Notes under the pieces: model-generated
What the model saw: only the letters and a program-made list of their open reading frames with translations
What the model was told of the DNA's origin: nothing
Databases searched by the model: none
Shown: piece after piece, positions 10,740 through 24,077 of the stretch
Numbering within the stretch: position 1 is the first letter of the stretch
Layout: every line of letters begins with the position of its first letter
Position numbers and translations under genes: made by a program
Assembly (NCBI RefSeq): GCF_012272815.1
Contig: NZ_JAAWWL010000001.1
Span: 576,929 to 640,928, forward strand
Length of the DNA stretch: 64,000 bases
Reading direction: 5' to 3'
Source: Croceivirga thetidis
GTDB lineage: Bacteria; Bacteroidota; Bacteroidia; Flavobacteriales; Flavobacteriaceae

Positions 10740-11453
10740 TTAATCTGGTGAAGTCACCTCTAATCGTGCGACCGAAAAGTTGCCAAATCCATCTCTGGAA
10801 ATCACCTCAACTGTATAATCCGTATCAAGCATGTAACCAATTGGTCCTATCGAAGTAGACGTCAAATCGACCGAATCAAAAACGGATTGGCCTTCTTCAA
10901 ATACCTCAACATCAAAAGTCAACTCATCACCATCTTCATCACTTCCGACCCACGTGACAGTCATTTCTGAAGTCCCCTCATCAAATGTTACCACTATCTC
11001 AGCCGTATAGGGTGCAAAATTCCCGATTGGTGTACCTGGGGTGGTAAATGAATTGGAATCACCATTCGTCTGGCCATCTTCATTTACCGAAGTCACTGAC
11101 CAACTAAAGGTCTTACCCCTATCCAACTCTACATTGGCATTTAAAGTAGTGAATGAACCTGTAAATACTTGACTACTTCCTTCCAAAACATTTAATACAT
11201 AACTATCCGCAAATTGTGCAGAGTTCCAATTGAACAAAACCGATACTTTGGAGTCATCACCTGAGACTTCTTCATAATCAGAACATGGTTCGCCATTTAC
11301 CGGCAAGGTTCCTACCGCCTTTGCGGGCGGGGTCTCATTTTGGATTGGCGGTTCAACTGGTTCTTCACTTGCCATTTCTTCCTCACACGAAACCAAAAAA
11401 ATCAGTGCTGAAAACATCAACAACCTAATTTTAATATTCAAGAACTTTTTCAT
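10740..11453 (-). CDS. Fibronectin III-like outer-surface lipoprotein, partner of the BspA-like protein
   Basis: Predicted lipoprotein of 237 residues. A signal peptide ends in a lipobox (FLVSC, Cys at about residue 23) followed by an acidic, Pro-rich linker ([13 protein letters not shown]). The acidic residues after Cys suit export to the surface in Bacteroidota. The mature part holds two beta-sandwich fibronectin III/Ig-like domains ([32 protein letters not shown]). Its start ATG overlaps the stop of the giant upstream gene by 4 bp (ATGA), implying translational coupling. It is homologous to, and exactly as long as, the lipoprotein at 19615-20328, which has the same position relative to another T9SS protein. 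Function is unknown; a role in anchoring or secreting its partner is inference. Confidence 0.7.
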
Positions 11454-14400
11454 CGCTTAATGATTTTAAAGGTTTTCACATTTTCACCCTCCACTAGGTT
11501 GATGAAATACATCCCCGAAGGCAATAAACTGACGTCAATTTCTACTGCTTGAGTTGAAAATTCGAGTTGCTTTAATGGTTGCATTACCCTACCCTCAAGA
11601 TTATAGATAGCAAATTCCAATTTTGAATTGGAGCTTAGTACATTAAAATGACTGGTTACTACTGTGGGGAAAATGGAGATGGAATCATCTACAAAGAAGC
11701 TATCTTCAATTTTTCCCTGACAATCACTTTCACCAGATATAACGATTTCAGTTTCACCATTCAAGTTTTCTAGGGATATCACATTTTCTTTATCATTTTC
11801 GAACTCAAAATTTTGGAGCTCTCCATTTACCCTTACAGTGTAGGTTTTACTACCGGAAACAAGATATGAGGCGGTTCTTGATTTTGTATCCAAGCTTTGC
11901 CGTTTTCCACTGACCGAGTCCAAAGCGTTTACCGTCACTCCAAACGTGCGTTCAAATAAAACCTCTGGAATTGAAACGGTAACCGTATAGGTCCCGACTG
12001 ATAGGTCTTCAATTTCAAAATTTGTTCCGGAGGTAACATCATTGAATTGATTGCTAACTGCTATTCCTTCGAGGGAAATGTCCAATTGGTACCCAGCAGC
12101 GTTCATGTTTACTTCAATAGAACCATCTGAGCTATCGGTACAGCTTGGAGTAAGCACAAATACCTGAATGGCATCATTAGCGATAAAATCACATCCGTTT
12201 TCATTGACCACGGCTCCTGGTGCCGAATTCAGACATTGATCAAACTGGTCCAATACTCCATCACCATCATTGTCTTGATTGCAGAGGGCAAACTCGCCGC
12301 CATCTGTTATTGTCCAACCGTAAGTGTCAATTATAAATTGTCTTGCATCAATAGCTTCACAATATTGGCTATCACCTGCATCAAAAACTACGTTGTTTTG
12401 CAGGCTAGGTAATACAGACCATTCCAAAAGTGTAGAATCATAATTTGGCGCAGATATTCCAGCTTCAAAAAACATTTCAGACATATTGGTTACGTTTGAT
12501 ACATTCCAGTTACCCAAATCTTGATCAAAGGCCTCAGCTAGTCTGAACATACCACGCATGTCAGTTACATTAGAAACATCCCAAGTACTCAAATCCTTAT
12601 TAAAAGAATGTGCATTGTTGAACATGTTGCTCATATTAACAACATTCGAAGTATCCCAAGAACTTAAATCTTGGTTATAAGATGTTGCGAAATTGAACAT
12701 CCCATTGATAAATTCAGCGTTACTGATATCCCAATTCGATAAGTCTTGATTGAATTCGTAGCAAACTCTGAACATACTATCAAATCTTTCAACATTACTA
12801 ACATCCCAGTCATTAAAAGAATCATTTCCAACTAAAGAATGGCAAAGTCCGAAAGAGTAAACCATTTGTTCCACTTTGGATAGGTTTGGAGTATCAGTTG
12901 CAACAACGTCCATATTTAGGCATTCTGCAAAGGCGTTATTAAAATTATCCCAAACAATATCTCCCCATTGCTCCACAGTCAATAATTTTTCCCTATCGAG
13001 ACGATCATTGCCGAAGAAACCATTCGAGGGAAAATACCCACTGATTTGAACCTCATAAATACCAGGAGTGATATAGGTATGTAATATGTCTCCACGGACA
13101 TTAGTATCTGAAGTGCCATCCCCCCAATCAATATCATATTGATAAATGGCGAATTCGTTTGTTGAAATCAATAGTTGATTATCTTCTGAATCTCCAAAAT
13201 TGTCAGTTTTCCATGTTGTTATGTATGGACGTTGCCCTTCAATGCAATTCTTGCCATTGTCGTTGATTATCCACCCATAGGTATCTATTAGGTTTTGTCT
13301 GGCGTCTTCGGCTTCACAGTATTCGTGATTTGAGGTATCAAACTGCACGTTTGACTGTAAAGATGGGAGATTGTTCCAGCCAATAAGCATGTCGTTGTAG
13401 TTTTGATAAGACATTCCTGTACTTTGAACAAACATATTTGACATATCGGTGACCTGAGAAACGTCCCATCCCCCCAAATTATAATCGAAGGTCCGATTCA
13501 TAAAAAACATACTTGCCATACTCGTTACACTAGAAACATCCCATTGGCTGATATCTTGATTGAAAGTCGGGTTACTGGAAAACATGAAGTCCATGAATTC
13601 AACTTTACTGACGTCCCAGCCTGAAATATCCTGATTAAAAGACGTTCGATTAAACATAGCGGCCATATTGGTAACACTGGAAACATCCCAATTATTTAGC
13701 TCACTGTTAAAAACGGAAGCCCCAGCAAACAAACTTTGCATTTGTTCAACGCTACTTACATTCCAGCCATTTAAATCTTGGTTAAAAGTCTTGGCCTCGC
13801 TGAACATTCCGGCCATATCAGTAACGTTGGAAACATCCCATGCACCTATGTTTTGATTGAAGAGGTCGGCTCCTCTAAATAGATTGGGCATGTTATTGAT
13901 CGACGAAACGTCCCAAAATTCAAAACTTTCATTTCCAATCAAAGAAACACAGTTTAAAAACATAGCTCCCAAAGAGTTGGAATTAGAGAAATCAGGAATA
14001 TCCTGTGCTGAAATGTCTAAATTTTTACAGCCAGCAAAAGCACCAAACATAAATCCCCATCTTGCAGTTCCCCACTGTTTTATGTCAATTATCTTTTCCT
14101 CATCGCCGATAAAATTTTCACGGTTTTGGTTATTAAAAAATATTTGGTTGAAATCTCCCGAAATGATTACGTCATATTCTCCAGGATTGGAATACGTATG
14201 TGTAATTGAGGCAGTAACATTGGTATCTGAGGTACCATCACCCCAATCCACGTTGTAATCGTAGGTGCCACCCGGAAATGTTGGAATCGTAATTTGATTA
14301 TCTTCAGATAGACCAGGGTTGTCAGTCTTCCATGTAGTTATAAAAAAACATTCGCTATTGGCACCATCATCTTCAATGTTCCAGCCATAGTTGTCAATTA

Positions 14401-16903
14401 TAGACTGTCTATCTTCTAACGAGTTACAAAATTGACTACCACCGGCATCGAAAACTACTCCGTTTTGAAGATTGGATAAACTGGCCCAACCCGCTAAGAG
14501 CGAATCATAGTTGGCGGTTGAAAGTTTTGCTCCGAAAAACATGGAAGACATATTGCCAACATTTGAAACATTCCAATTTTCCAGATTTTGGTCAAAACTT
14601 GTCGCACCAAAGAACATATTTTGCATATCAGTAACCTGAGATACATTCCAATTACCAATACCCTGATTAAAAGCCCACGAATCTTGAAACATGGCCCGCA
14701 TATTCTGAACCGCAGATGTATTCCAATTACTGATATTGCCGTTAAATTGTTGGGCTGAGGAAAACATAAAAGACATATCTGTTACGTTACTTACATCCCA
14801 AGAACCAAGCTCTTGGTTGAACTCAAAACAATCAGCAAACAAATCATTCATGATTTGAACATTACCAACCTCCCAATTTTCAAATTCAGTTGTGCCTTCT
14901 AAGGAATAGCAACCATTGAACATTGAATTCATATTGGTAACATTATCCAAAATGGGTTCGTCAGGGGCGACAACATCAAGCTCGGTACAATTGAAAAAGG
15001 CAAATTCCATGGATGTCCATTGAATCGAACCCCAAAGATCAACTGACAACAATTTTTGATTGTCGAACGGGGAATTTTCGTCGGTAGTTGCTCCTAAAAA
15101 ATAAAGCCTTGGAAATTGACCACTAATAGAAATGGTATATGTTCCAGGATTTGCATAGGTGTGGGTAATATCACCCATAACATTGGTATCTATATTACCA
15201 TCACCCCAATCGATTGAATAATCATAGGTCTCTCCAGGAAAAGTGGGAATTGTGATTTGATTGTCATTTGAACCCCCTGGATTATCTGTTTTCCATGTTG
15301 TGATAAATGGGCAGACCCCGATGCCCCCATCCGTTATTGTCCAACTAAAATCGTTTATCAATTTTGATTTTGCTGATGCCCCAGTGCAAAGGGTGCTGTT
15401 ACCAGCGTCAAACTGAACATTACTTTGTAAAGATGGAAGATTCGCCCAGCCAGTTAAAGTTGCGTCATAATTAACTTGAGACAGGCCTGCGTCATTAAAC
15501 ATATCTTTCATAGTCGTTACGTTAGTTATATCCCATCCGCCCAAGTCTTGGTCAAAAGAAGTTGCTCTTTCAAACATTGCGTCCATACTACTAACACCGC
15601 TTACGTTCCAACCAGAGACATCTTGGTTGAACGAGGTGGCCCCGAAGAACATCGCGCCCAAATCAATATTGTTGCTAAGATCCCAAGCACCAATATTTTG
15701 GTCAAAGGAGTTTGCATCAAAGAACATACCTCGCATTGTGGTTACATTACTCGTATCCCAATTCGAAATATTCTGATTAAAATTTGAAGCTCCAGCAAAC
15801 ATTCCTTGCATTGAAGTTACCTGGCCAACATTCCATCCATTTAAATTTTGATTAAAACTTGATGCACCAGCGAAAAGCTCCTTCATCATGGTAACATTCT
15901 CAACATTCCATAATTCTATAGGTTGATTAAAGTCAACTGCATTTCTAAACATGTTTTCCATATTCAAAACAGCACCCACATTCCATTGCGAAATATTGTT
16001 ATTAAAACTAGAAGCTCCTGAAAACATTTCTTTCATATTTTCCACCTTGGAAACATTCCAACTATTTAGTTCTCTGTTGAAATTTGGAGCATTCTTAAAC
16101 ATGGCTTCCATATTTAGTACTGCGGAAGTATTCCATGTATTCAATGGTTGATCAAAGCCAGTCGCGAAAGAAAACATGTAACTCATGTCCGACACTGAAG
16201 AAACATCCCAACCGGATATATCAATATTAAAGTTTTGGGTAGCGGAAAACATCCCTAACATGTTTTGGACTTTGGACACATTCCAAGCACTTATATCTTG
16301 ATTAAATGCAGAACCTGAAAACATTGCCGGCATCGCCTGCACATTGCTTACATTCCAATTGGAGATATCGATGTTAAAATTTGAGGTGCCACTAAATAAA
16401 GAAGACATATCAGTAACTGTTCCGACTTGCCAAGTACCCATTGCAGAATTACCAACCAAGGAAGTGCAACCTGTGAACATGTTAACCATATTCTGGACCC
16501 CTGAAAGATTTGGCACGTCGTTCGCCAAAACGTCTAAATTTTCGCAATACCAAAATGCCGAGAACATTGATTGCCATTCTATTCCACCCCATTGATCGAT
16601 AGAAATTAATTTTTTGCCTTCATCTAGACCACCAAAATAAATGTGGGGAAAATCGCCTGTTATCGAAACTTGGTAGGTTCCGGGTGCAGCATATGTATGG
16701 GTAATGTTGCCTGTTACAATAGTATTTGTCGTACCATCACCCCAGTCCACCTCGTAATTATAGGTTACATCAGGATGTGTTGGAATGGTAATTTGATTGT
16801 CATTTGATGAACCTTCATTATCAGTTTTCCAAGTAGTTACAAAGGCTTGAGAAAAAACTGTAAGGGAAACAAGAAGAAAGGCTAGCGTAAAAGTTAGTCT
16901 CAT
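11450..16903 (-). CDS. Giant BspA-like (DUF285) surface protein with PKD domains and T9SS sorting domain
   Basis: Secreted protein of 1817 residues. A signal peptide (about 1-20, ending VFSQA) is followed by four tandem modules starting near residues 24, 534, 856 and 1229. Each opens with a PKD-like domain (TTWKTDN..., YDYxVDWGDGT, ITHTY) and continues into a ladder of about 25-residue DUF285 repeats of the form NWDVSNVTxMxxMFxxAxxFNQ, closed by a cap (NYDxxLxGW...LPSLQ, then AR/DA-rich GW motif). Near residue 1550 there is a calcium-binding thrombospondin type 3-like loop ([14 protein letters not shown]), then an Ig-like block with a CQG motif, then a type A T9SS sorting domain over the last 75 residues (ending FKIIKR). 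It is predicted to be exported by the Sec system, moved across the outer membrane by T9SS and displayed or released. BspA-like ladders often mediate adhesion. Confidence 0.85.
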
Positions 16904-16987
16904 AGGTCGTGTTTAGTCTTAATAAAAACCTAAAAACACTAAAAATATTATATGACTCTTGGCTAAAACTGATGATTTTTATCGGAA

Positions 16988-17019
16988 AGAAAAAAGCCCC
17001 AAACAGTCGTTTGAGGCTT
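16988..17019 (-). terminator. Intrinsic terminator of tRNA-Leu
   Basis: Read on the minus strand: an 11-bp stem AAGCCTCAAAC / GTTTGGGGCTT (one G-T pair) with a 4-nt loop, followed by a T-rich run. It begins 5 bp past the tRNA 3' end and separates the tRNA from the BspA-like gene start at 16903. Confidence 0.8.
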
Positions 17020-17024
17020 CTAAG

Positions 17025-17108
17025 TACCGAAGGTGGGAATCGAACCCACACGGTATTGCTACCACTGGATTTTGAATCCAGCGCGTCTACCAATTCCGCC
17101 ACTTCGGC
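17025..17108 (-). tRNA. tRNA-Leu (anticodon CAA)
   Basis: Cloverleaf of 84 nt on the minus strand. Acceptor stem GCCGAAG pairs with CTTCGGT (G1-T72 wobble) with discriminator A73. The anticodon arm is CTGGA-TTCAAAA-TCCAG, giving anticodon CAA (reads UUG). A long class II variable arm and the T-arm GTTCGATTC are present. The 3' CCA is not encoded (ACTT follows position 72), as is common in Bacteroidota. It is flanked by its own promoter and terminator, so it is a single-gene unit. Confidence 0.95.
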
Positions 17109-17119
17109 AAATGGGACTG

Positions 17120-17148
17120 CAAAGCTAAAAAATTATTTCAATCACAAA
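17120..17148 (-). promoter_or_regulatory. Promoter of tRNA-Leu
   Basis: On the minus strand, TTTG (17148-17145) and TAGCTTTG (17127-17120) are separated by 17 bp. This fits the Bacteroidota -33 TTTG / -7 TAnnTTTG promoter, and would place the start of transcription a few bases before the tRNA 5' end at 17108. Confidence 0.65.
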
Positions 17149-17192
17149 ACCAAATTAACCACAATTATACTTTAGCAACCCAGATTAATTTT

Positions 17193-17200
17193 TAAATTTG
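17193..17200 (+). promoter_or_regulatory. -7 promoter box for prs
   Basis: TAAATTTG matches TAnnTTTG. A weak -33 (TTTAG, 17171-17175) lies 17-18 bp upstream. The leader to the preferred prs start at 17252 would be about 45 nt. Confidence 0.45.
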
Positions 17201-17251
17201 CACCGCTTTTGAAGGGCCGTTGAAATGCTGGTCTTTCTTAATTTGAGAAGA

Positions 17252-18193
17252 ATGCCATATCAAGTTCCAGAACCTAAAATTTTTGCGTGCACACAAAGTA
17301 CGGCACTAGGCGAAAAAATCGCTGGAGCATACGGAGCTGATTTGGGTAAAATCCATTTCTCTAGATACAGTGACGGGGAGTTTCAGCCCTCTTTTGAAGA
17401 GTCAATTCGAGGAGCTCGAATCTTTATCATAGGTTCTACCAATCCGAGTTCAGAGAATTTGATGGAAATGTTGTTGATGTTGGATGCCGCAAAACGCGCC
17501 TCTGCTAGACATATCACAGCGGTCATGCCCTATTTTGGATGGGCTAGACAGGACCGAAAGGACAAACCTAGGGTGCCTATTGCTGCCAAGATGATTGCCA
17601 AAATGTTGGAGACCGCGGGAGCAACACGAATCATTACCATGGATTTACATGCAGATCAAATCCAGGGGTTTTTTGAAAAACCAGTAGATCATTTATTCGC
17701 GTCAACTCTCTTTTTACCGTATTTGCAAAGCTTAAAACTGGACAATCTCTGTATTGCTTCTCCAGATATGGGTGGTTCAAAAAGAGCTTATGCCTATTCC
17801 AAGGCTTTGGAAAGTGACGTTGTTATTTGTTACAAACAAAGAGCAAAAGCCAACGTCATATCGCATATGGAACTTATTGGTGATGTTAAAGGCAAAAACG
17901 TCGTATTGGTTGATGATATGGTAGATACGGCGGGTACCTTGACTAAAGCTGCCGATTTGATGATGGAAAGGGGTGCTGTCAGTGTTAGAGCAATTACCAC
18001 CCATGGTCTGCTATCAGGCAATGCTTATGAAAAAATAGAAAAATCACAATTGCAAGAATTGATCATCACCGATTCAATTCCTTCAAGAGATAATCATCCG
18101 AAAATTAAGGTGTTGAGTTGTGCAGGTTTATTCGCAGATGTTATGCATCGCGTACACCACAACACTTCAATTTCGTCAAAATTTATAATGTAG
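17252..18193 (+). CDS. prs: Ribose-phosphate pyrophosphokinase (PRPP synthetase)
   Basis: Makes PRPP from ribose 5-phosphate and ATP for purine, pyrimidine, His, Trp and NAD synthesis; 313 residues, a normal length. Both phosphoribosyltransferase-like halves are present. The ATP/flexible-loop region reads PYFGWARQDRKDKPR, the metal-binding histidine lies in DLHADQIQGFF, and the PRPP-binding loop is VVLVDDMVDTAGTL. I chose ATG 17252 (MPYQVPEPKIFACTQS), the usual family start. A start 27 bp upstream is in frame but adds an unconserved MLVFLNLRR. rplY/ctc follows after 63 bp with no terminator between, so the two are probably co-transcribed. Confidence 0.95.
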   Translation: MPYQVPEPKIFACTQSTALGEKIAGAYGADLGKIHFSRYSDGEFQPSFEESIRGARIFIIGSTNPSSENLMEMLLMLDAAKRASARHITAVMPYFGWARQDRKDKPRVPIAAKMIAKMLETAGATRIITMDLHADQIQGFFEKPVDHLFASTLFLPYLQSLKLDNLCIASPDMGGSKRAYAYSKALESDVVICYKQRAKANVISHMELIGDVKGKNVVLVDDMVDTAGTLTKAADLMMERGAVSVRAITTHGLLSGNAYEKIEKSQLQELIITDSIPSRDNHPKIKVLSCAGLFADVMHRVHHNTSISSKFIM

Positions 18194-18256
18194 CCTTCGA
18201 CTACGGTTGGGCTTCAAGGTTCAAACAATTCGAAAAAAATAATTTAAATAGTAAAT

Positions 18257-18898
18257 ATGAAGTCAATTACGATCAAAGGATCTAAAAGAGAAAGCGTGGG
18301 CAAGGTTGCTACTAAGGCCTTACGTAATGCTGGAAAGGTCCCTTGCGTTCTGTACGGAGGGGAATCACCATTGCACTTTTCAGCTGATGAACTAGCGTTC
18401 AAAAACCTGGTGTACACTCCAAATGCATACACTGCGGTAATTGAACTTGAAGGTGGGGAAACCTTGAATGCTGTTTTACAAGACATTCAATTTCACCCTG
18501 TAACGGATAAAATCTTACATATAGATTTCTTCCAGTTATTCGACGACAAAGCTGTAACCATGAATATTCCTGTTCGTTTGGAAGGAAATTCACCTGGGGT
18601 ACGAAATGGTGGTCGCCTTTTGTTTAGAAAGCGTAAGCTTTCTGTAAAAGCATTGCCAAATTTGTTGCCGGATGAAATCAAAGTGGATATTTCGACCCTT
18701 AAAATCGGTCAAAAAGTAGCTGTTGAGTCCATCAAAAGCGATGATTACACTATCATGCATCCTGATAACATCACCGTAGTTCAAGTGAAGGCTGCTAGAA
18801 ACGCCATCGTTGACGATGAGGAAGAGGAAGAAGGTGAAGAAGGTGCACCAGCTGAAGGTGGTGAAGCACCAGCTGCTGAAGCTTCAGCTGAAAGCTAA
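18257..18898 (+). CDS. rplY: 50S ribosomal protein L25/general stress protein Ctc
   Basis: Ribosomal protein of 213 residues that binds 5S rRNA. It is the long Ctc (TL5-like) form: an N-terminal L25 beta-barrel ([32 protein letters not shown]) followed by a second beta domain. It ends in an acidic/Ala tail of about 30 residues ([17 protein letters not shown]), typical for Bacteroidota homologues. The prs-ctc-pth order is widely conserved in bacteria, which supports the call. An intrinsic terminator follows directly. Confidence 0.94.
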
Positions 18899-18917
18899 AT
18901 CATTCCGAAATTATACT

Positions 18918-18956
18918 AAAAAGCGCCTTTCTTCTAAGTTAGGCGCTTTTGTATTT
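18918..18956 (+). terminator. Intrinsic terminator after rplY/ctc
   Basis: Stem AAAAGCGCCT / AGGCGCTTTT (right arm 18941-18950) with a 12-nt loop, followed by GTATTTTT. The T-rich tail runs into a TATTTTTG box that may be the pth promoter. Confidence 0.85.
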
Positions 18957-18959
18957 TTG
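18952..18959 (+). promoter_or_regulatory. -7 promoter box for pth
   Basis: TATTTTTG fits TAnnTTTG. It overlaps the U-tract of the preceding terminator. Transcription would start near 18966, about 11 nt before the GTG start of pth. No -33 TTTG is visible, so the call rests on one box. Confidence 0.35.
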
Positions 18960-18976
18960 GATAAATTGAAAATTGC

Positions 18977-19609
18977 GTGTTCGAATTTCTTAGAAAATTA
19001 TTTGGTCATAAAGCAAAACAGTACCTCGAAGAAAACGACCCTATGAAAAAGTTTTTAATCACAGGATTGGGAAATATTGGTGATAAGTACGAAAACACCA
19101 GACATAACATCGGATTTCAGGTATTGGACCAATTGGCCACTGAAGAAGAATTGACCTTTGCTGACGACCGTTTGGGAGCAGTAGCGACCTTTAAACACAA
19201 AGGACGGTCGGCCATTTGTCTCAAACCATCTACCTATATGAACTTGAGTGGCAAGGCTGTTCGCTATTGGATGGACAAAGAAAAGATTCCGTTACAAAAC
19301 ATTCTGATTATCACAGATGATATAAACCTACCTTTTGGCACTATTCGTTTAAAGACCAAAGGAAGTGATGGTGGGCACAATGGGCTAAAAGATATTCAAC
19401 AACAATTGCAAACCACCAAATACAACCGGTTTAGATTTGGTGTTGGCGCAGATTTTTCGAAAGGTCGCCAAGTCGATTATGTTCTGGGGCAATGGAACGC
19501 TGAAGAGGAAGGTAAAATGCAAGAGCGCTTAAAAAAATCAACCGAATTGATTCGGTCTTTCATGTTTTCTGGTGTTGCGAACACCATGAATACCTTTAAT
19601 AACAGCTAA
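18977..19609 (+). CDS. pth: Peptidyl-tRNA hydrolase
   Basis: Releases peptides from peptidyl-tRNA dropped by ribosomes. Catalytic and binding residues are visible: N in GLGNIGDKY, the catalytic His in NTRHNIGF, N in TYMNLSG, Asp in ITDDINLPFG and N in GGHNGLKDIQQ. The core starts at MKKFLITGLGN (base 19043). A GTG at 18977 adds a 22-residue basic/acidic leader (MFEFLRKLFGHKAKQYLEEN), which resembles the N-terminal extension found in other flavobacterial Pth proteins, so I keep the longer form (210 residues). If that start is wrong, the protein has 188 residues. Confidence 0.93.
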   Translation: MFEFLRKLFGHKAKQYLEENDPMKKFLITGLGNIGDKYENTRHNIGFQVLDQLATEEELTFADDRLGAVATFKHKGRSAICLKPSTYMNLSGKAVRYWMDKEKIPLQNILIITDDINLPFGTIRLKTKGSDGGHNGLKDIQQQLQTTKYNRFRFGVGADFSKGRQVDYVLGQWNAEEEGKMQERLKKSTELIRSFMFSGVANTMNTFNNS

Positions 19610-19614
19610 GTAGA

Positions 19615-20328
19615 TTATTGCACCTTAAAATCGTAGACTCCTGAATCTGAGTTGTTTCCTTGGGCGTCTGTAGTAATGACCTTCCAATAATTCACAGATC
19701 CGGATTCCAGACCTGAAATTGCAAAGCTTGAATCTGCCCCAACATAAACAGAAGTCAGGGTATTAGGCGACCCAGTGGCGAAAAAAAGCTCGTAGGAAAC
19801 AATATCATCTTCTACATCGGTACCGTCCCAATCAAATACAACCTCATCATTCTGGTTTTTAACCGCTGTTGATCCTGATTCCGGTTCAAGGATGGTCGCA
19901 GGAAAAGGTGGATAATTAACGATGGTTCCAGCGTTATAAAAGAGCCAGCTTTCACTTTCAGCGCTTTCTTGAGATTCGTTGTTTCGCGAGGTAATAGACC
20001 ATGAAAAAGGTGTTCCTTTGGCAATAGCCAAAGTTGCCGTCGTTTCTGAGGTAAACAAAGTCTGTGGAGGAGTCGAAGAGTTTAAATTGATGACTTCCAA
20101 GGTATAAACGTCTGTATTTTCAGAAGCATTCCATTCAAATGTAACCTCACTAAAATCAGTGTTTAAATCAACACCTGTGTTGCATTCTGAATTTTCAAAA
20201 GGAAAGACCAAGGTGGCAGCTGAAGGTGGATCTGGTAAGGGCGGTGTAGGAGGATTGTCATCACCGCCTCCAGAGCATGAAATCAGTAGCCCCAACACTA
20301 AAAAACTTAGATACTTCTTCATTTTCAT
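19615..20328 (-). CDS. Fibronectin III-like outer-surface lipoprotein, partner of the reprolysin-like protease
   Basis: Predicted lipoprotein of 237 residues: signal peptide with lipobox LLISC (Cys about 18), then a Gly/Asp/Pro linker (SGGGDDNPPTPPLPDPP). Two fibronectin III-like beta domains follow (VTFEWNASENTDVYTLEV; EVVFDWDGTDVEDDIVSYEL). It aligns along its length with the lipoprotein at 10740-11453, sharing blocks such as a WN-S/A...Y-L-V strand, FSWS-TS and a W-G-D acidic loop. Its ATG overlaps the stop of the giant protease gene by 4 bp, the same arrangement as in the other pair. Function unknown; surface partner of a T9SS cargo is an inference from this repeated context. Confidence 0.7.
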   Translation of the reverse strand: MKMKKYLSFLVLGLLISCSGGGDDNPPTPPLPDPPSAATLVFPFENSECNTGVDLNTDFSEVTFEWNASENTDVYTLEVINLNSSTPPQTLFTSETTATLAIAKGTPFSWSITSRNNESQESAESESWLFYNAGTIVNYPPFPATILEPESGSTAVKNQNDEVVFDWDGTDVEDDIVSYELFFATGSPNTLTSVYVGADSSFAISGLESGSVNYWKVITTDAQGNNSDSGVYDFKVQ

Positions 20329-23300
20329 CGCTTCAGAATTTTGAAGGTTTCGCTGATTCGATTTCCCGATAGTTTCAATAAATAGAGTCCCGAAGGAAAA
20401 TCGTTTAGTTGCACATCCAACCTACCTGAACTGATATTACGATTATCTGATTTGATTAATCTACCATCATAGGAGAACAATTGAACATTCAATTCTCCTG
20501 AAAAATCATTCAGAAATAAGGTTACCTGATCTTGTGTAGGATTAGGTGCAAGAAATGCTCCAGTATTCACCAAAAACGTCTCTTTGAATTCCCCTTGACA
20601 AGGCAAATTGGTAAATACCCTTATTTCATTTACTCCGTTTCTCAAATCAAGGGTGATTTCAGTTTCTCGGGTTTGGGTTACCACCCCGTTCACTTCAATA
20701 TTATATAAGGTTCCTCCTTGCAGTGAAATGGTAGTTGTCAAATCTTGTTCGTCAAAAACAGCACTGGCCTGTAGCGGTTCGGGTTCATTTATGGTAATCG
20801 CAAAACAGGTTTCCTCATAGTTGTTGATACCATCAGTACCCGTTATACATAAACTGTAATTACCAGCCGTTAGGTCGGTAAAAGAAGTTTGATCATTAAA
20901 TGCCAAAACGGTATCACCGCCCGGTCCAGATAACGTTCCTTCATAATTAAGGGAAGTATCAACGGCGTTCAGATTAAGCGCCCCATCATTGTTATCGCGA
21001 CAAGTTTCATTATTGATTTCAATGAAAAAGTTGTCGGTCGGAAAGCGATAAACTTGGCAACCATCGGTATTGACTTGAACACCTTTTGGGGTTCCTAGGC
21101 ACAAATCGTCACCATCGTCAAAAACGCCATCTTCATCTTCGTCCGGTCTAAATGTTCCCTCAACGCAGAAAGTAACCGTAAAGTCAATAAGTTGACCTCC
21201 ATCGCCTGCTGCGGTATCATCAATTTCAAGCACCCATTCTCCTTCGCCGAACTCTCCATTAAAAGTGGAAAGTGCAGCAAGGGGTCGAACGGTTCCACTA
21301 ATTGCAGGATTACCGGAACAACTGATTTCGGTTCCGTCATCATCAAAAGTGGCATTTATGTTATTCAATGGGCCACAAGTGTTCGAGGTCAATAAGACCT
21401 TGGTTCCATTTGGTGAAGTCAAGCTTATGACCAAATCCCCTAGGTAGGTATGTTCCAATTCTAGGGCCACATCAATATCAGCAATGGGTAAATTTTGTGA
21501 AAGGTTTACCGTTGCTGTGATGGCAGATGGCGCTCCATTCGATATAGCTCGAGGTAAACCCTGAGCTGAAACCGTTATACAGTCAATTAAAATAGTAGTG
21601 AAACTAAAGGGAGCAGAGTAATTACCTACAGCACAATTATTACTAGGCCGAACTCGCCAAAAATATGTTGTTGACGGATCCAAATTACTTGACTCGTACA
21701 TATTGACATTTACAAGACCAGTTTCAACAATATTGGTAAAGGCATCGTCGGTTGCAATTTCAATTTCATAAGATGCATGATTGGGGTCGTCTTCCCATGA
21801 AAAGGTTGGATTTATTCGAGTATCAACAGCTAAATCGGCAGGCGCCAATAAAACTGCATCATTCAAATTTGAATCAAAGACATGCAGTAGAACATCCACT
21901 TCAGTAGTTGACCCTCCTGAAGTACCCGTTATCTCAATTGGGTAACTGCCAACATCCAAAGAAGATACATCTGAAAGCGCTAGTGAAACAGCGGTATCAT
22001 TAGTTGTTACTGAAGATGGCGTAAATGTTCCCGAAACACCAGTTGGTAGATTTGCCGTTAAGTTTGTAGTACCAGCAAAACCATTAAATGTTTCGTATAC
22101 AAAATCAATCGTCAGGTTATCAGGTTTGCAGACTGTATACTCAAGCTCATCAAAATTCAAAATAAAATCCGAGGCGGTAATCTCAAAATTCTCAGCGTTT
22201 ACCGCGAAGAAAATATTTCCGTTGGCCCTTACCATAATTCGGGCTTGACTTGTTGGTGTTCCCGGCAATTGTATACCTGCACTACCATCATTTGGAATTG
22301 CAGTTGCCAGAGGAATTGTAAAACTCGCACCACCATCAGTGGACAAAAATACATCTACAAAATCTGCGCTAATCGGAGGTAAATTGGTGCCAGCAACATC
22401 CCATTCCACTGTAATAACCGAACCACCATTAAATTGCAATGAGCTTTCTGATTGTGACGTTATGGCAAAGACATTGCCAGTATCCACTACATCAACCTTA
22501 ACCTCTTCTGTTGCCACCTGGCCTCCACCGAAACCATTATCTCGAACAGTGAGTGCAAAATTAAATTCGCGACTTATAGTAGAAACAGTTTCCCATGCCG
22601 AATTCAGTGGTGGCAACGATTGGGTCAAATTGCCAGAGATAACTCTTGAAAGTCTTGGAAAATACCGTGAGGCATCAGTAGTCGGTGATAGCGATCTAAA
22701 GTTGGCACCTATTGGGTTTTCAGGCCCAAAAGTATCTCGGGTAACCACACCATTATCGATTTGTTCCCAACAATACAACAGTGTGTCTCCTGCATCTGGG
22801 TCAGTGGCATTGCCCGTCAGCACAAAAGCAGTACCTGCTGGTATCACATAATCAGGATTTTCCACGATAACCGGCACATTATTGGTTAAATCGGTATCCA
22901 CAGCACAGGTCTGGCTTCTGATATAGGTCGTCATTTGCTGAATGCTATTGTAGTGGTAATAGGCATCGCCATTGGGAGCAACGTTATTTGCACCAGTTAT
23001 TCCGGCATATCCCATAATCGTAGTTCCACTTGCGGGTTCAGCTTGAACACCAGTACCTTCGGTTTCGAATGACCAGGTATGGTTGGCGCCTAACTGGTGC
23101 CCCATTTCATGGCCTACATAATCTAAATCGTATAAATCGGTTTCTGGAATATTGGCAGACGAGAATGCCCTCCCTTTTATAGGGCCACAAACAGTACCAA
23201 TACCACCGGCGTTACCATTATCATCATCAAGGTGAAACAAGTGTCCGATATCAAAGTTTGCTGAACCGATAGTGGTTTCAAGCTCGTTTTGTACTTCACC

Positions 23301-24077
23301 AAGGAGATTAGATCCAGAAGAATATGGGTCCGTTGTTGGGTCTGTGAAGATGACATTGGTAACGTTGGCAACCAATTCCAATCGTACACCGACATCCCGT
23401 TCCAAAATCTCATTGACCCGTGTTATTGTAGCGTTCATAGCGGCTAATGCATCCGTTACAGTACCTCCATGATAATTGGTATAATCACCGGAAGCTGAGA
23501 CTGCCAAACGATAGGTTCTTAGGGTTTGATCGTCAACCAACTTTTGCGTAAAGCCACCTAAGCCCATCATTTTTGCTCCTTCATCCAGAGTTTTGCAAAC
23601 GAAGTTCTTATTTGTCAAACTGCGCCCATTCATTTTGTATATACTAGATGTTCTGCTTTCTTTTTGAATGAACATTGTTTTCTGTGCTTCGAAATCTTGT
23701 AGCATAACTTGCACCCCTCGGTGTGAGGTGCTAAATCGAACTTTCTTTTTTGCATCAGCAGACCAGCCAACAAATGATTTGATTTGTGGAAATCGCTTTG
23801 CTAATTCTGGATGTAAAACCGAAGATTCCTTTACATGAAAGGCAATCATTTTTCCATTTTCATCAGGAAAATGGACTACTTGGGTGCCAGAGTTATCTTG
23901 TATTGCCTGACGCAGTGAGCTTTTAAATGATGTTTCGTCTAAACTGAAATAGTAATTATTGGAATTTTGGTCGACTAATTTTGTGGTCGTTCCTTGCCAG
24001 TAGTTTTGTTGTGCAATAACTGAAATTGAAGCAAAAAATATGGCTGTTGATAAAACAAGGCGTAATTTAGCTTTCAT
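20325..24077 (-). CDS. Secreted reprolysin-like zinc metalloprotease with P-domain and T9SS sorting domain
   Basis: Secreted multidomain protease of 1250 residues. A signal peptide (1-22, ending SVIAQ) and a propeptide lead to a metzincin catalytic domain with HEMGHQLGANH (about 321-331), the HExxHxxGxxH zinc motif of M12B/reprolysin-like enzymes. Ig/fibronectin III-like domains follow (about 560-860), then a proprotein-convertase P-domain (about 862-968; HTYLGDLVISLTSPNG, DGGQLIDFTVTFC), a calcium-binding TSP3-like loop (DEDEDGVFDDGDDLC), an Ig-like block with a CQG motif and a type A T9SS sorting domain in the last 75 residues (ending FKILKR). Probably acts on extracellular protein. The region from the TSP3 loop to the C-terminus is homologous to that of the BspA-like protein. 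Confidence 0.87.
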   Translation of the reverse strand: MKAKLRLVLSTAIFFASISVIAQQNYWQGTTTKLVDQNSNNYYFSLDETSFKSSLRQAIQDNSGTQVVHFPDENGKMIAFHVKESSVLHPELAKRFPQIKSFVGWSADAKKKVRFSTSHRGVQVMLQDFEAQKTMFIQKESRTSSIYKMNGRSLTNKNFVCKTLDEGAKMMGLGGFTQKLVDDQTLRTYRLAVSASGDYTNYHGGTVTDALAAMNATITRVNEILERDVGVRLELVANVTNVIFTDPTTDPYSSGSNLLGEVQNELETTIGSANFDIGHLFHLDDDNGNAGGIGTVCGPIKGRAFSSANIPETDLYDLDYVGHEMGHQLGANHTWSFETEGTGVQAEPASGTTIMGYAGITGANNVAPNGDAYYHYNSIQQMTTYIRSQTCAVDTDLTNNVPVIVENPDYVIPAGTAFVLTGNATDPDAGDTLLYCWEQIDNGVVTRDTFGPENPIGANFRSLSPTTDASRYFPRLSRVISGNLTQSLPPLNSAWETVSTISREFNFALTVRDNGFGGGQVATEEVKVDVVDTGNVFAITSQSESSLQFNGGSVITVEWDVAGTNLPPISADFVDVFLSTDGGASFTIPLATAIPNDGSAGIQLPGTPTSQARIMVRANGNIFFAVNAENFEITASDFILNFDELEYTVCKPDNLTIDFVYETFNGFAGTTNLTANLPTGVSGTFTPSSVTTNDTAVSLALSDVSSLDVGSYPIEITGTSGGSTTEVDVLLHVFDSNLNDAVLLAPADLAVDTRINPTFSWEDDPNHASYEIEIATDDAFTNIVETGLVNVNMYESSNLDPSTTYFWRVRPSNNCAVGNYSAPFSFTTILIDCITVSAQGLPRAISNGAPSAITATVNLSQNLPIADIDVALELEHTYLGDLVISLTSPNGTKVLLTSNTCGPLNNINATFDDDGTEISCSGNPAISGTVRPLAALSTFNGEFGEGEWVLEIDDTAAGDGGQLIDFTVTFCVEGTFRPDEDEDGVFDDGDDLCLGTPKGVQVNTDGCQVYRFPTDNFFIEINNETCRDNNDGALNLNAVDTSLNYEGTLSGPGGDTVLAFNDQTSFTDLTAGNYSLCITGTDGINNYEETCFAITINEPEPLQASAVFDEQDLTTTISLQGGTLYNIEVNGVVTQTRETEITLDLRNGVNEIRVFTNLPCQGEFKETFLVNTGAFLAPNPTQDQVTLFLNDFSGELNVQLFSYDGRLIKSDNRNISSGRLDVQLNDFPSGLYLLKLSGNRISETFKILKR

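Follow-up and report, generated by a model that had tools for sequence, protein, structure and literature searches.

The gene pairs and their question

Why should a giant protein that carries a T9SS type A sorting domain be followed by a lipoprotein gene overlapping its stop codon? The question arises twice in the window, by which we mean the whole stretch of 64,000 nucleotides of Croceivirga thetidis DNA analyzed here, and it touches on the sorting of type A substrates to the surface or to the medium, which has been described as unsolved (PMC10202324). An earlier note on this DNA had reported two minus-strand pairs of like design with 4-bp overlaps, and the open reading frames and both overlaps are as claimed. 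The features are the following (LP, lipoprotein; CTD, sorting domain).

10740-11453, minus strand: LP1, 237-aa lipoprotein; lipobox Cys23; lone further Cys57 (codon 11285-11283); two FnIII/Ig-like domains
11450-16903, minus strand: giant 1, 1817 aa; signal peptide, DUF285/PARCEL (BspA-like) repeats and PKD domains, extended C terminus, T9SS type A CTD
11450-12283, minus strand: extended C terminus of giant 1; TSP3 linker, D1, D2, type A CTD; invariant Cys1588 and Cys1728
11450-11453, minus strand: ATGA overlap of pair 1; TGA stop of giant 1 and ATG start of LP1
19615-20328, minus strand: LP2, 237-aa lipoprotein; lipobox Cys18; lone further Cys49 (codon 20184-20182)
20325-24077, minus strand: giant 2, 1250 aa; signal peptide, M12B reprolysin-like metalloprotease, P-domain, FnIII-like domain, extended C terminus, type A CTD
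20325-21155, minus strand: extended C terminus of giant 2; TSP3 linker, D1, D2, type A CTD; invariant Cys1026 and Cys1160
20325-20328, minus strand: ATGA overlap of pair 2; TGA stop of giant 2 and ATG start of LP2

The sequence at both stop/start overlaps reads ...AAGCGATGAAA..., and promoter and terminator scans gave no signals above those of shuffled sequences. LP1 and LP2, each of 237 aa, are homologous as had been proposed (28% identity over 195 columns, E 6e-8). Their description as FnIII-like held in part: both show similarity to PF00041 but score 19.3 bits, below the Pfam cut-off of 25. Both giants carry a type A sorting domain above the curated cut-off (TIGR04183, 38.2 and 38.9 bits for giants 1 and 2 versus 23; PF18962, 42.2 and 43.6 bits versus 27), and neither matched the type B model TIGR04131 at E<=1. 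Giant 1 also matched DUF285 (E 2.6e-264) and PKD models, and giant 2 matched Reprolysin_4 (E 1.2e-43) and P_proprotein. The view that the giants are unrelated applies to their N-terminal parts, but homology extends over the final ~275 residues of the two proteins (E 2e-19; 26% identity in an alignment of 284 columns), as compared to about 75 residues for the sorting domain.

Beyond the window, the C. thetidis genome harbors three more LP pairs (L002, L003 and L139), and an extended C terminus was found in 5 of its 23 type A matches. L139 was detected only with a richer profile, and LP counts are therefore lower bounds; this holds for C. thetidis as well, where the richer profile was not run on each of the other 18 type A matches. 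Two candidates from this genome were rejected as family members: L005, a lipoprotein with repeats that has only an FnIII-like domain in common, and L006, a noise match.

Lipoproteins accompany the extended C terminus across genomes

LPs (E<=1e-20) were found in 44 of 100 genera, and 87 of 92 lay directly behind a match to the extended C terminus on the same strand. The five exceptions were a pair in reversed order (L111), two LPs at contig ends (L093 and L100), an incomplete LP on a contig of 3 kb (L116) and a degenerate remnant (L062). Similarly, 79 of 80 LPs directly followed a T9SS type A gene in a second genome set (80 of 413 kept, drawn with one LP clade and overlapping the 100-genus set), the 80th having N upstream. 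Zobellia uliginosa (L205) and Z. barbeyronii (L209) are among the species with the pair. The earlier note had called for a search of whether LPs follow T9SS type A genes, and both counts bear out its idea of a conserved accessory with an exchangeable cargo. At the level of genera, both elements were present in 44, LP alone in 0, the extended C terminus alone in 4 and neither in 52; in one of the four extended-only genera (G038), an LP is matched at E 5e-14. The nearest ATG had an offset of -4 in 105 of 180 pairs, as in the window, and of -1 in 22, both overlapping the giant's stop.

At first pass, 29 of the 118 extended C termini had no LP behind them, counted among the matches listed with the best 25 or fewer candidates per genome scored (9 or fewer in one further scoring). 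Nineteen of the 29 were inspected, and 15 had no LP in the surrounding stretch; the rest consisted of L139 with its divergent LP, L132/L111 with the LP in front, and L128 and L133, both interrupted by the end of a contig. The G086 member of the 15 has neighbors matching those of the window's metalloprotease, and because these same neighbors occur there with no LP, the LP seems dispensable in this genome. The LP goes with the extended C terminus (TSP3-D1-D2-CTD) and not with type A sorting domains generally, and the conserved unit is the extended C terminus plus LP, with an exchangeable cargo in front.

The lipoprotein tracks D1D2 while the cargo changes

The cargo survey, covering 80 of 87 listed regions, gave 42 Pfam models, some overlapping, in the 80 cargos, which include proteases, glycoside hydrolases and sortilin-like, LRR, beta-helix and DUF285 proteins. 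Among 191 locus pairs whose LPs share at least 45% identity, 85 had homologous cargos and 103 had cargos with no detectable similarity, with one region unmapped and with long cargos compared by their N-terminal parts only.

LP divergence correlated more strongly with D1D2 (r 0.884) than with the CTD (r 0.524), the noisiest of the compared regions, and the partial correlations were 0.841 and 0.179, respectively (n=177 pairs for both analyses). Three of the 180 pairs (L142, L095 and L216) were dropped from the distance and coupling tests, and 2 of 104 from the within-genome test. Re-pairing the LPs within genomes lowered the between-genome r from 0.795 to a mean of 0.395 (maximum 0.572, 500 shuffles), and the CTD control decreased from 0.504 to a mean of 0.266 in the same shuffle. 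Within genomes, LP tracking reached r 0.948 for D1D2 versus 0.872 for the CTD (82 paralogue pairs).

Features and predicted structure of the lipoprotein

In the 180 distinct pairs, exactly one Cys follows the lipobox in 171 LPs; the conserved LP Cys is present in 179, and each of the two Cys of the cargo C terminus in all 180. Surface lipoproteins of Bacteroidota carry an export signal beside the lipid Cys, reported as K-(D/E)2, SDDFE or SDDDD (PMC5080379). At least one D/E was present at positions +2 to +6 in 135 of 179 LPs, and at least two within +2 to +11 in 160 of 179. However, the acidic residues peak at +6/+7 and not at +3 to +5, so that the match to the export signal is a loose one.

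A PDB sequence search with the LP returned mostly FnIII/Ig-type domains (16 sequences, E<=1), and its second domain resembles solved domains of this type. The same search with the extended C terminus gave 7 sequences, of which six matched the CTD and the other was an OmpA-family stretch aligned to the TSP3 part, and homology between the LP and the cargo C terminus was not detectable (hhalign probability 0.5%). LP relatives were modelled as two Ig/FnIII-like domains, for which the best 50 Foldseek matches of both models were generic Ig/FnIII-type bead proteins.

AlphaFold2 support for docking of the LP on D1D2 is mixed, coming from one of two in-frame pairs, each modelled as a single chain: L043 reached a pTM of 0.68 versus about 0.46 expected without docking, and L011 a pTM of 0.51, as expected without docking, where both expectations assume errors of 3 and 22 angstrom. 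Residue couplings between the LP and the C terminus exceeded those of shuffled pairings, with phylogeny not removed. In mfDCA, these couplings defined no interface or contact; the top ones were spread as area predicts and were not concentrated in D1D2, and the LP Cys window ranked at the 47th and 86th percentiles with Cys48 and Cys179 of the extended C terminus. A check for misplaced residues, made on A3 alone, found 7-18 of them in the wrong half for 7 of the 63 LP rows.

Lipoproteins are frequent where PorU is not detected

The C. thetidis genome encodes the translocon SprA and the shuttle PorV. PorU was not detected in it by several searches, of which only one used a model validated by its detection of PorU in other genera, and the GldJ-like and PorV genes adjoin without a porU. 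Flavobacteria lacking PorU had already been noticed, the available part of that report giving no anchoring route (PMC7440613). Of the 33 genera in which PorU was not detected, 29 have an LP, versus 15 of the 67 with PorU; three of the genera scored as PorU-less (G031, G047 and G057) have weak partial PorU matches (E about 2e-4 to 5e-4). Because six PorU-less genera had less than 90% completeness or more than 5% contamination, we repeated the count on the 81 more complete genomes and found an LP in 23 of 27 versus 13 of 54. In a PorV tree that covers 50 of the 97 PorV-bearing genera, the association rests on about five evolutionary changes, and the number of pairs was too small for an independent-pairs test to reach significance.

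A candidate route for surface retention

We consider it somewhat probable that the LP is an outer membrane lipoprotein dedicated to docking D1D2, which would keep type A cargo on the surface; direct binding, the surface side and retention are what we infer. The Ig-like D1D2 and the TSP3 linker stand before an ordinary type A sorting domain on many different cargos, and the closely coupled, often stop/start-overlapping gene would supply the cognate partner, an outer membrane lipoprotein with two FnIII/Ig-like domains. As judged from the CTD, the cargo would take the export route of other type A substrates, through SprA and with PorV; the LP would then bind D1D2 at the cell surface and hold the cargo as a lipid-anchored complex. 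This would provide type A substrates with a retention route requiring neither sortase nor anionic LPS, and a common one in flavobacteria without detectable PorU. In many marine flavobacteria, a large secreted protein of the surface, be it a protease, an enzyme that degrades sugars or an adhesin-like protein, has its own LP, and the joint evolution of the two suggests that the LP holds its partner on the surface. A bolder version, which we regard as unlikely, is that in PorU-less flavobacteria the lone Cys of a surface LP attacks an invariant disulfide clamping D1 to D2 of the freshly exported cargo, giving a covalent mixed-disulfide anchor to the outer membrane, free of sortase. If true, T9SS substrates would have a third attachment chemistry in addition to sortase linkage to LPS and binding by a barrel.

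The LP could also act before secretion, as a periplasm-facing outer membrane lipoprotein that binds D1D2 and serves as a substrate-specific chaperone or pilot to SprA/PorV. Stop/start overlap and a one-to-one specific partner, both seen here, are typical of secretion chaperones, and tracking of the C terminus rather than the cargo would fit this role as well. We nevertheless hold it to be unlikely, since the LPs have an acid-rich stretch after the lipid Cys like surface lipoproteins, though shifted (PMC5080379), CTDs are described as enough for export in published fusion experiments (PMC12618676), and 15 of the 19 inspected extended C termini without an LP behind have none in the surrounding stretch.

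Quite improbable, in our view, is a separate surface accessory beside the cargo, for instance a glycan- or substrate-binding lipoprotein, that does not hold it. Ig/FnIII-like folds such as that of the LP are often binding modules, and several glycoside hydrolases are among the cargos; however, LP divergence tracks D1D2, close LPs go with cargos without detectable similarity, and none of the 44 LP genera (E<=1e-20) lacks the extended C terminus.

We give very little credence to LP and giant being merely co-inherited neighbors whose correlation reflects linkage and shared ancestry. Part of the distance correlation must indeed stem from shared descent, and the excess of couplings over shuffled pairings still contains phylogeny. 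Yet the CTD, encoded between D1D2 and the LP, shows the lower between-locus correlation (it is also the noisiest region), LP-only genera number 0 of 44, and the pairing was kept in the one genome with reversed gene order. Finally, an inhibitor or immunity protein shielding the cell from its enzyme would suit the close coupling to proteases and glycoside hydrolases but is scarcely credible, as one LP family also accompanies sortilin-like, LRR, beta-helix and DUF285 cargos, which to our knowledge have no common active site, and follows the C terminus, not the N-terminal cargo.

Comparison with known systems

If LPs are dedicated partners of a portable docking region, this would account for the retention of proteases and algal-polysaccharide enzymes on the surface of common marine bacteria, and the LP plus extended C terminus would be an easily recognized sequence signature for surface-held enzymes. 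We found no description of the LP-giant module in the open-access literature searched, and neither the CelAly nor the FP0506 paper, in its accessible parts, describes the LP pair. Pep25/Lbp26 of F. collinsii, considered as a parallel, are Wza/Wzz-like and unrelated.

Sus-like surface-exposed lipoproteins of Bacteroidota are outer membrane lipoproteins, as the LPs are predicted to be, and carry an acidic export signal (PMC5080379), which the LPs match loosely; they serve glycan acquisition, and no T9SS partner enters into that description. For SprF-GldK, an invariant lipoprotein Cys has been proposed to attack a disulfide of the T9SS partner; for the authors' first guess, SprF-GldJ, AlphaFold3 gave no plausible complex (PMC12635249). 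GldK is a periplasmic track protein common to its partners, whereas the LP appears dedicated to one cargo, and its conserved Cys is a candidate for such a link. PorU/PorV/PorQ/PorZ with anionic LPS likewise retain type A substrates on the surface, but by sortase chemistry on LPS, and PorU is undetected in C. thetidis and 32 other genera of the 100.

A further likeness is to the type B/PorP-SprF pairs. In SprB-SprF and PG1035-PorP, a cognate and usually gene-linked partner anchors the T9SS substrate after export (PMC9143113, PMC12618676, PMC10202324), and the LP would likewise be a cognate, usually gene-linked partner of a T9SS substrate. Those pairs combine a type B CTD with an outer membrane barrel that replaces PorV, whereas the cargos studied here end in a type A CTD (TIGR04183), and their partner is not a PorP/SprF barrel but a lipoprotein of Ig-like domains whose divergence follows D1D2 more closely than the CTD.

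Two window pairs share an extended C-terminus

The two gene pairs in the window lie where the earlier note had placed them, and in both, the stop of the cargo gene and the start of the lipoprotein (LP) gene overlap as ATGA:

11450-16903, minus strand: giant 1, large T9SS cargo gene
10740-11453, minus strand: LP1, paired with giant 1
20325-24077, minus strand: giant 2, large T9SS cargo gene
19615-20328, minus strand: LP2, paired with giant 2

As had been noted, LP1 and LP2 are homologues of 237 amino acids each (28% identity, E 6e-8), and domain searches placed a type A T9SS sorting domain (CTD) at the C-terminal end of both giants. The same searches identified giant 1 as a DUF285/PARCEL (BspA-like) protein and giant 2 as an M12B-type metalloprotease. 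The claim that the giants are unrelated in front stands, but a homologous C-terminus of about 275 residues had been overlooked (E 2e-19). It consists of a TSP3-like acidic linker followed by two domains that we named D1 and D2 in this analysis, and then the CTD; no Pfam or NCBIfam model exceeded its cut-off in D1D2 of the giants. We refer to this region as the extended C-terminus.

Further pairs in the same genome

Searching the 3.7-Mb genome of C. thetidis with LP2 (E ≤ 10) returned six places: LP1, LP2 and loci L002, L003, L005 and L006. L002 and L003 are true LP copies, each sharing 4 bp with a gene that carries the same extended C-terminus. L005 (contig C2, 985913-989197) was rejected as an unrelated lipoprotein of 591 aa that has repeats and a single FnIII-like domain and adjoins what we take to be a two-component pair, and L006 was discarded as noise. 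L139 is a fifth pair, whose LP is divergent and was detected only with a richer profile. All five extended-C-terminus genes found in this genome are thus followed by an LP. They are among its 23 TIGR04183 matches (18 over the cut-off); genome-wide searches found no LP for the 18 other matches, although an LP as divergent as that of L139 would escape them.

The module is widespread in the family

Using profiles built from four copies of this genome, we searched 100 genomes representing 100 genera of the family. The LP profile (E ≤ 1e-20) matched 92 times, in 44 genomes, and the extended-C-terminus profile (E ≤ 1e-19) 118 times, in 48, among the matches listed. The earlier note had proposed scoring whether LPs directly follow type A genes: when joined by coordinates, 87 of the 92 lay directly behind a same-strand extended C-terminus. 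The exceptions were as follows:

L062 (G001, contig C13, 1146-2063): degenerate remnant, with part of D1 and part of the LP in one frame, then a frame change
L093 and L100: both at contig ends
L116: truncated LP on a 3-kb contig, the upstream stretch being without extended C-terminus
L111 with L132 (G002, contig C1): order reversed, with the LP first and the start of the extended-C-terminus gene about 30 bp behind it

Adjacency also held in a second set, obtained by scanning genome contigs with 12 close LPs and keeping 80 of 413 relatives, including Zobellia, Maribacter, Muricauda/Allomuricauda, Robiginitalea, Croceitalea, Cellulophaga, Tenacibaculum, Aquimarina and Lutibacter. An extended C-terminus was directly upstream of 79 of these 80 LPs; at the remaining one (L220), the upstream DNA reads N.

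In the converse direction, a first pass found an LP behind 89 of the 118 extended C-termini. We fetched 19 of the other 29 (L123 to L141): L139 had its divergent LP, L132 had the LP in front, L128 and L133 were cut by contig ends, and 15 had no LP within the stretch fetched. One of these 15, L123 (G086), has a 1259-codon frame and the same neighbours as the window metalloprotease, presumably pth and an rplY-like gene, and because of them it is probably an orthologue without LP.

Across the phylum, the LP profile (E ≤ 1e-12) matched 21 of 296 genomes, among the matches listed: 13 belong to the same family and one (G311) to a different family of the class, and seven are more distant. The matches in these seven cover the profile only partly, and six lie within frames of more than 420 codons with FnIII-like stretches.

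From both genome sets together, we assembled 180 distinct pairs of LP and C-terminus. The LP-frame ATG nearest the cargo stop was at -4 in 105 pairs and at -1 in 22. Some LPs are unusually long: L142 (G038, contig C9) encodes 334 aa and looks like a tandem duplication with the conserved cysteine in the second copy only, and the LP frames of L024 and L072 (428 and 431 codons) have a candidate C-terminal extension of about 200 residues.

Overall, the two-gene module is real, widespread and coupled, and its conserved unit is the LP together with the extended C-terminus.

The cargo is exchangeable

Across 80 cargos, the N-terminal ~610 residues matched 42 Pfam models, some overlapping, including reprolysin (20), sortilin/VPS10 (12), GH42 (5), beta-helix (4), GH5 (3), alpha-amylase (3), DUF285 (2) and GH81 (1), plus others. 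Of 191 locus pairs whose LPs are at least 45% identical, 85 have homologous cargos and 103 have cargos in which no similarity could be detected; the other 3 are uncertain. Judged from these comparisons, the part in front of the extended C-terminus is exchangeable. Two adjacent modules, L081 and L083 (G020, contig C15), share 99.5% identity in the LP, 100% in the CTD, 84% in D1D2 and 69% in the TSP3 linker, and no similarity was detectable between their cargos (558 residues against the first 800 of about 1725). Apparently, the module was duplicated and the cargo changed.

The LP diverges together with D1D2

LP distances closely followed D1D2 distances (r 0.884, 177 pairs); for comparison, r was 0.781 between the LP's own two domains and 0.663 between D1 and D2. 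It was 0.654 for the TSP3 linker and 0.524 for the CTD, though the CTD is encoded nearer the LP gene; the weaker value may partly reflect noise of the fast CTD (mean distance 0.73). When LPs were swapped among paralogues within each genome (102 pairs of the first set, 500 rounds), the between-genome correlation with D1D2, 0.795 for the true pairs, averaged 0.395 (maximum 0.572), and that with the CTD, 0.504 for the true pairs, averaged 0.266 (maximum 0.386). Within genomes, CTD tracking nearly equaled that of D1D2 (0.872 and 0.948 in 82 paralogue pairs), and agreement with the LP on nearest neighbours differed little (CTD 31/102, D1D2 38/102); both speak against a pure D1D2 story. Residue coupling between LP and C-terminus exceeded that of six shuffled pairings and was concentrated in no region, phylogeny still being included in both results.

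Two in-frame pairs were each modelled as a single chain. L011 gave pLDDT 92 and pTM 0.51, and L043 pLDDT 88 and pTM 0.68. Assuming errors of 3 and 22 angstrom, the pTM expected without docking is ~0.52 and ~0.46, respectively, and with the LP docked on D1D2 ~0.71 and ~0.64, so that one of the two models suggests docking.

We consider surface retention of type A cargo through LP-D1D2 docking the most likely work of the module, with slightly better than even confidence. The main rival, in which the LP would serve the cargo as a chaperone before secretion, seems rather improbable to us.

Conserved cysteines

Exactly one cysteine follows the lipobox in 171 of the 180 LPs, usually with no partner inside the LP, and its position is conserved in 179, the exception being the tandem L142. 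The cargo C-terminus has two invariant cysteines (180/180 each); in the model, one lies behind the first strand of D1 and the other ahead of the final strand of D2. Ig topology makes it likely that they point towards each other where D1 meets D2. Further cysteine pairs of the C-terminus appear and disappear jointly. Among 18 C-termini without LP behind, the second invariant cysteine was present in all and the first in 16, the remaining two having a cysteine one column away. An internal disulfide is therefore more likely, and this retention argues against a bond formed solely with the LP.

PorU and the LP

PorV and SprA are present in C. thetidis; PorU was not found with one search model proven in other genera, nor with others having no working control. 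On contig C2 (L303, 3193-6348), a GldJ-like lipoprotein gene adjoins PorV across a gap of ~320 bp with no porU between; excerpts of PMC7440613 give the order gldJ-porU-porV for F. johnsoniae. Across the 100 genera, PorV was found in 97 and PorU in 67 (66 over the cut-off, one as fragments). A homologue of the genome's own GldJ-like protein was directly beside PorV in 10 of 13 PorU-less loci examined, and PorU ended 21-130 bp before PorV in all seven PorU-bearing loci examined.

Of the PorU-less genera, 29 of 33 had the LP, against 15 of 67 in which PorU was found (p 3e-10 by Fisher's test, kinship ignored), and, among 81 genomes at least 90% complete with at most 5% contamination, 23 of 27 against 13 of 54 (p 2e-7, kinship ignored). 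The PorU-less genera without LP (G007, G016, G023 and G035) had no or one extended-C-terminus match each, among the matches listed. A PorV tree covering 50 genera requires 5 changes for PorU state and 10 for the LP; one clade accounts for much of the association, and only 2 pairs were supported in an independent-pairs test. We regard this association as a lead rather than proof. Going by the searches, the LP cannot stand in for PorU with every type A protein, because most of those in C. thetidis have no LP found.

Comparison with known systems

Attack of the LP cysteine on the cargo disulfide would be a putative parallel to lipoprotein GldK, whose Cys343 is proposed, in excerpts of PMC12635249, to attack a disulfide in SprF. 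Partners named in excerpts of PMC10202324, PMC9143113, PMC12618676 and PMC10994853 are PorV for type A substrates and PorP/SprF for type B. Searches of open-access papers turned up no title or abstract describing a lipoprotein partner for type A substrates; an earlier description may exist in subscription papers. The module lacks both of the defining features of the SprB-SprF family that were tested and hence falls outside it. By analogy, it would nevertheless work similarly to SprB-SprF, as a pair of substrate and anchor.
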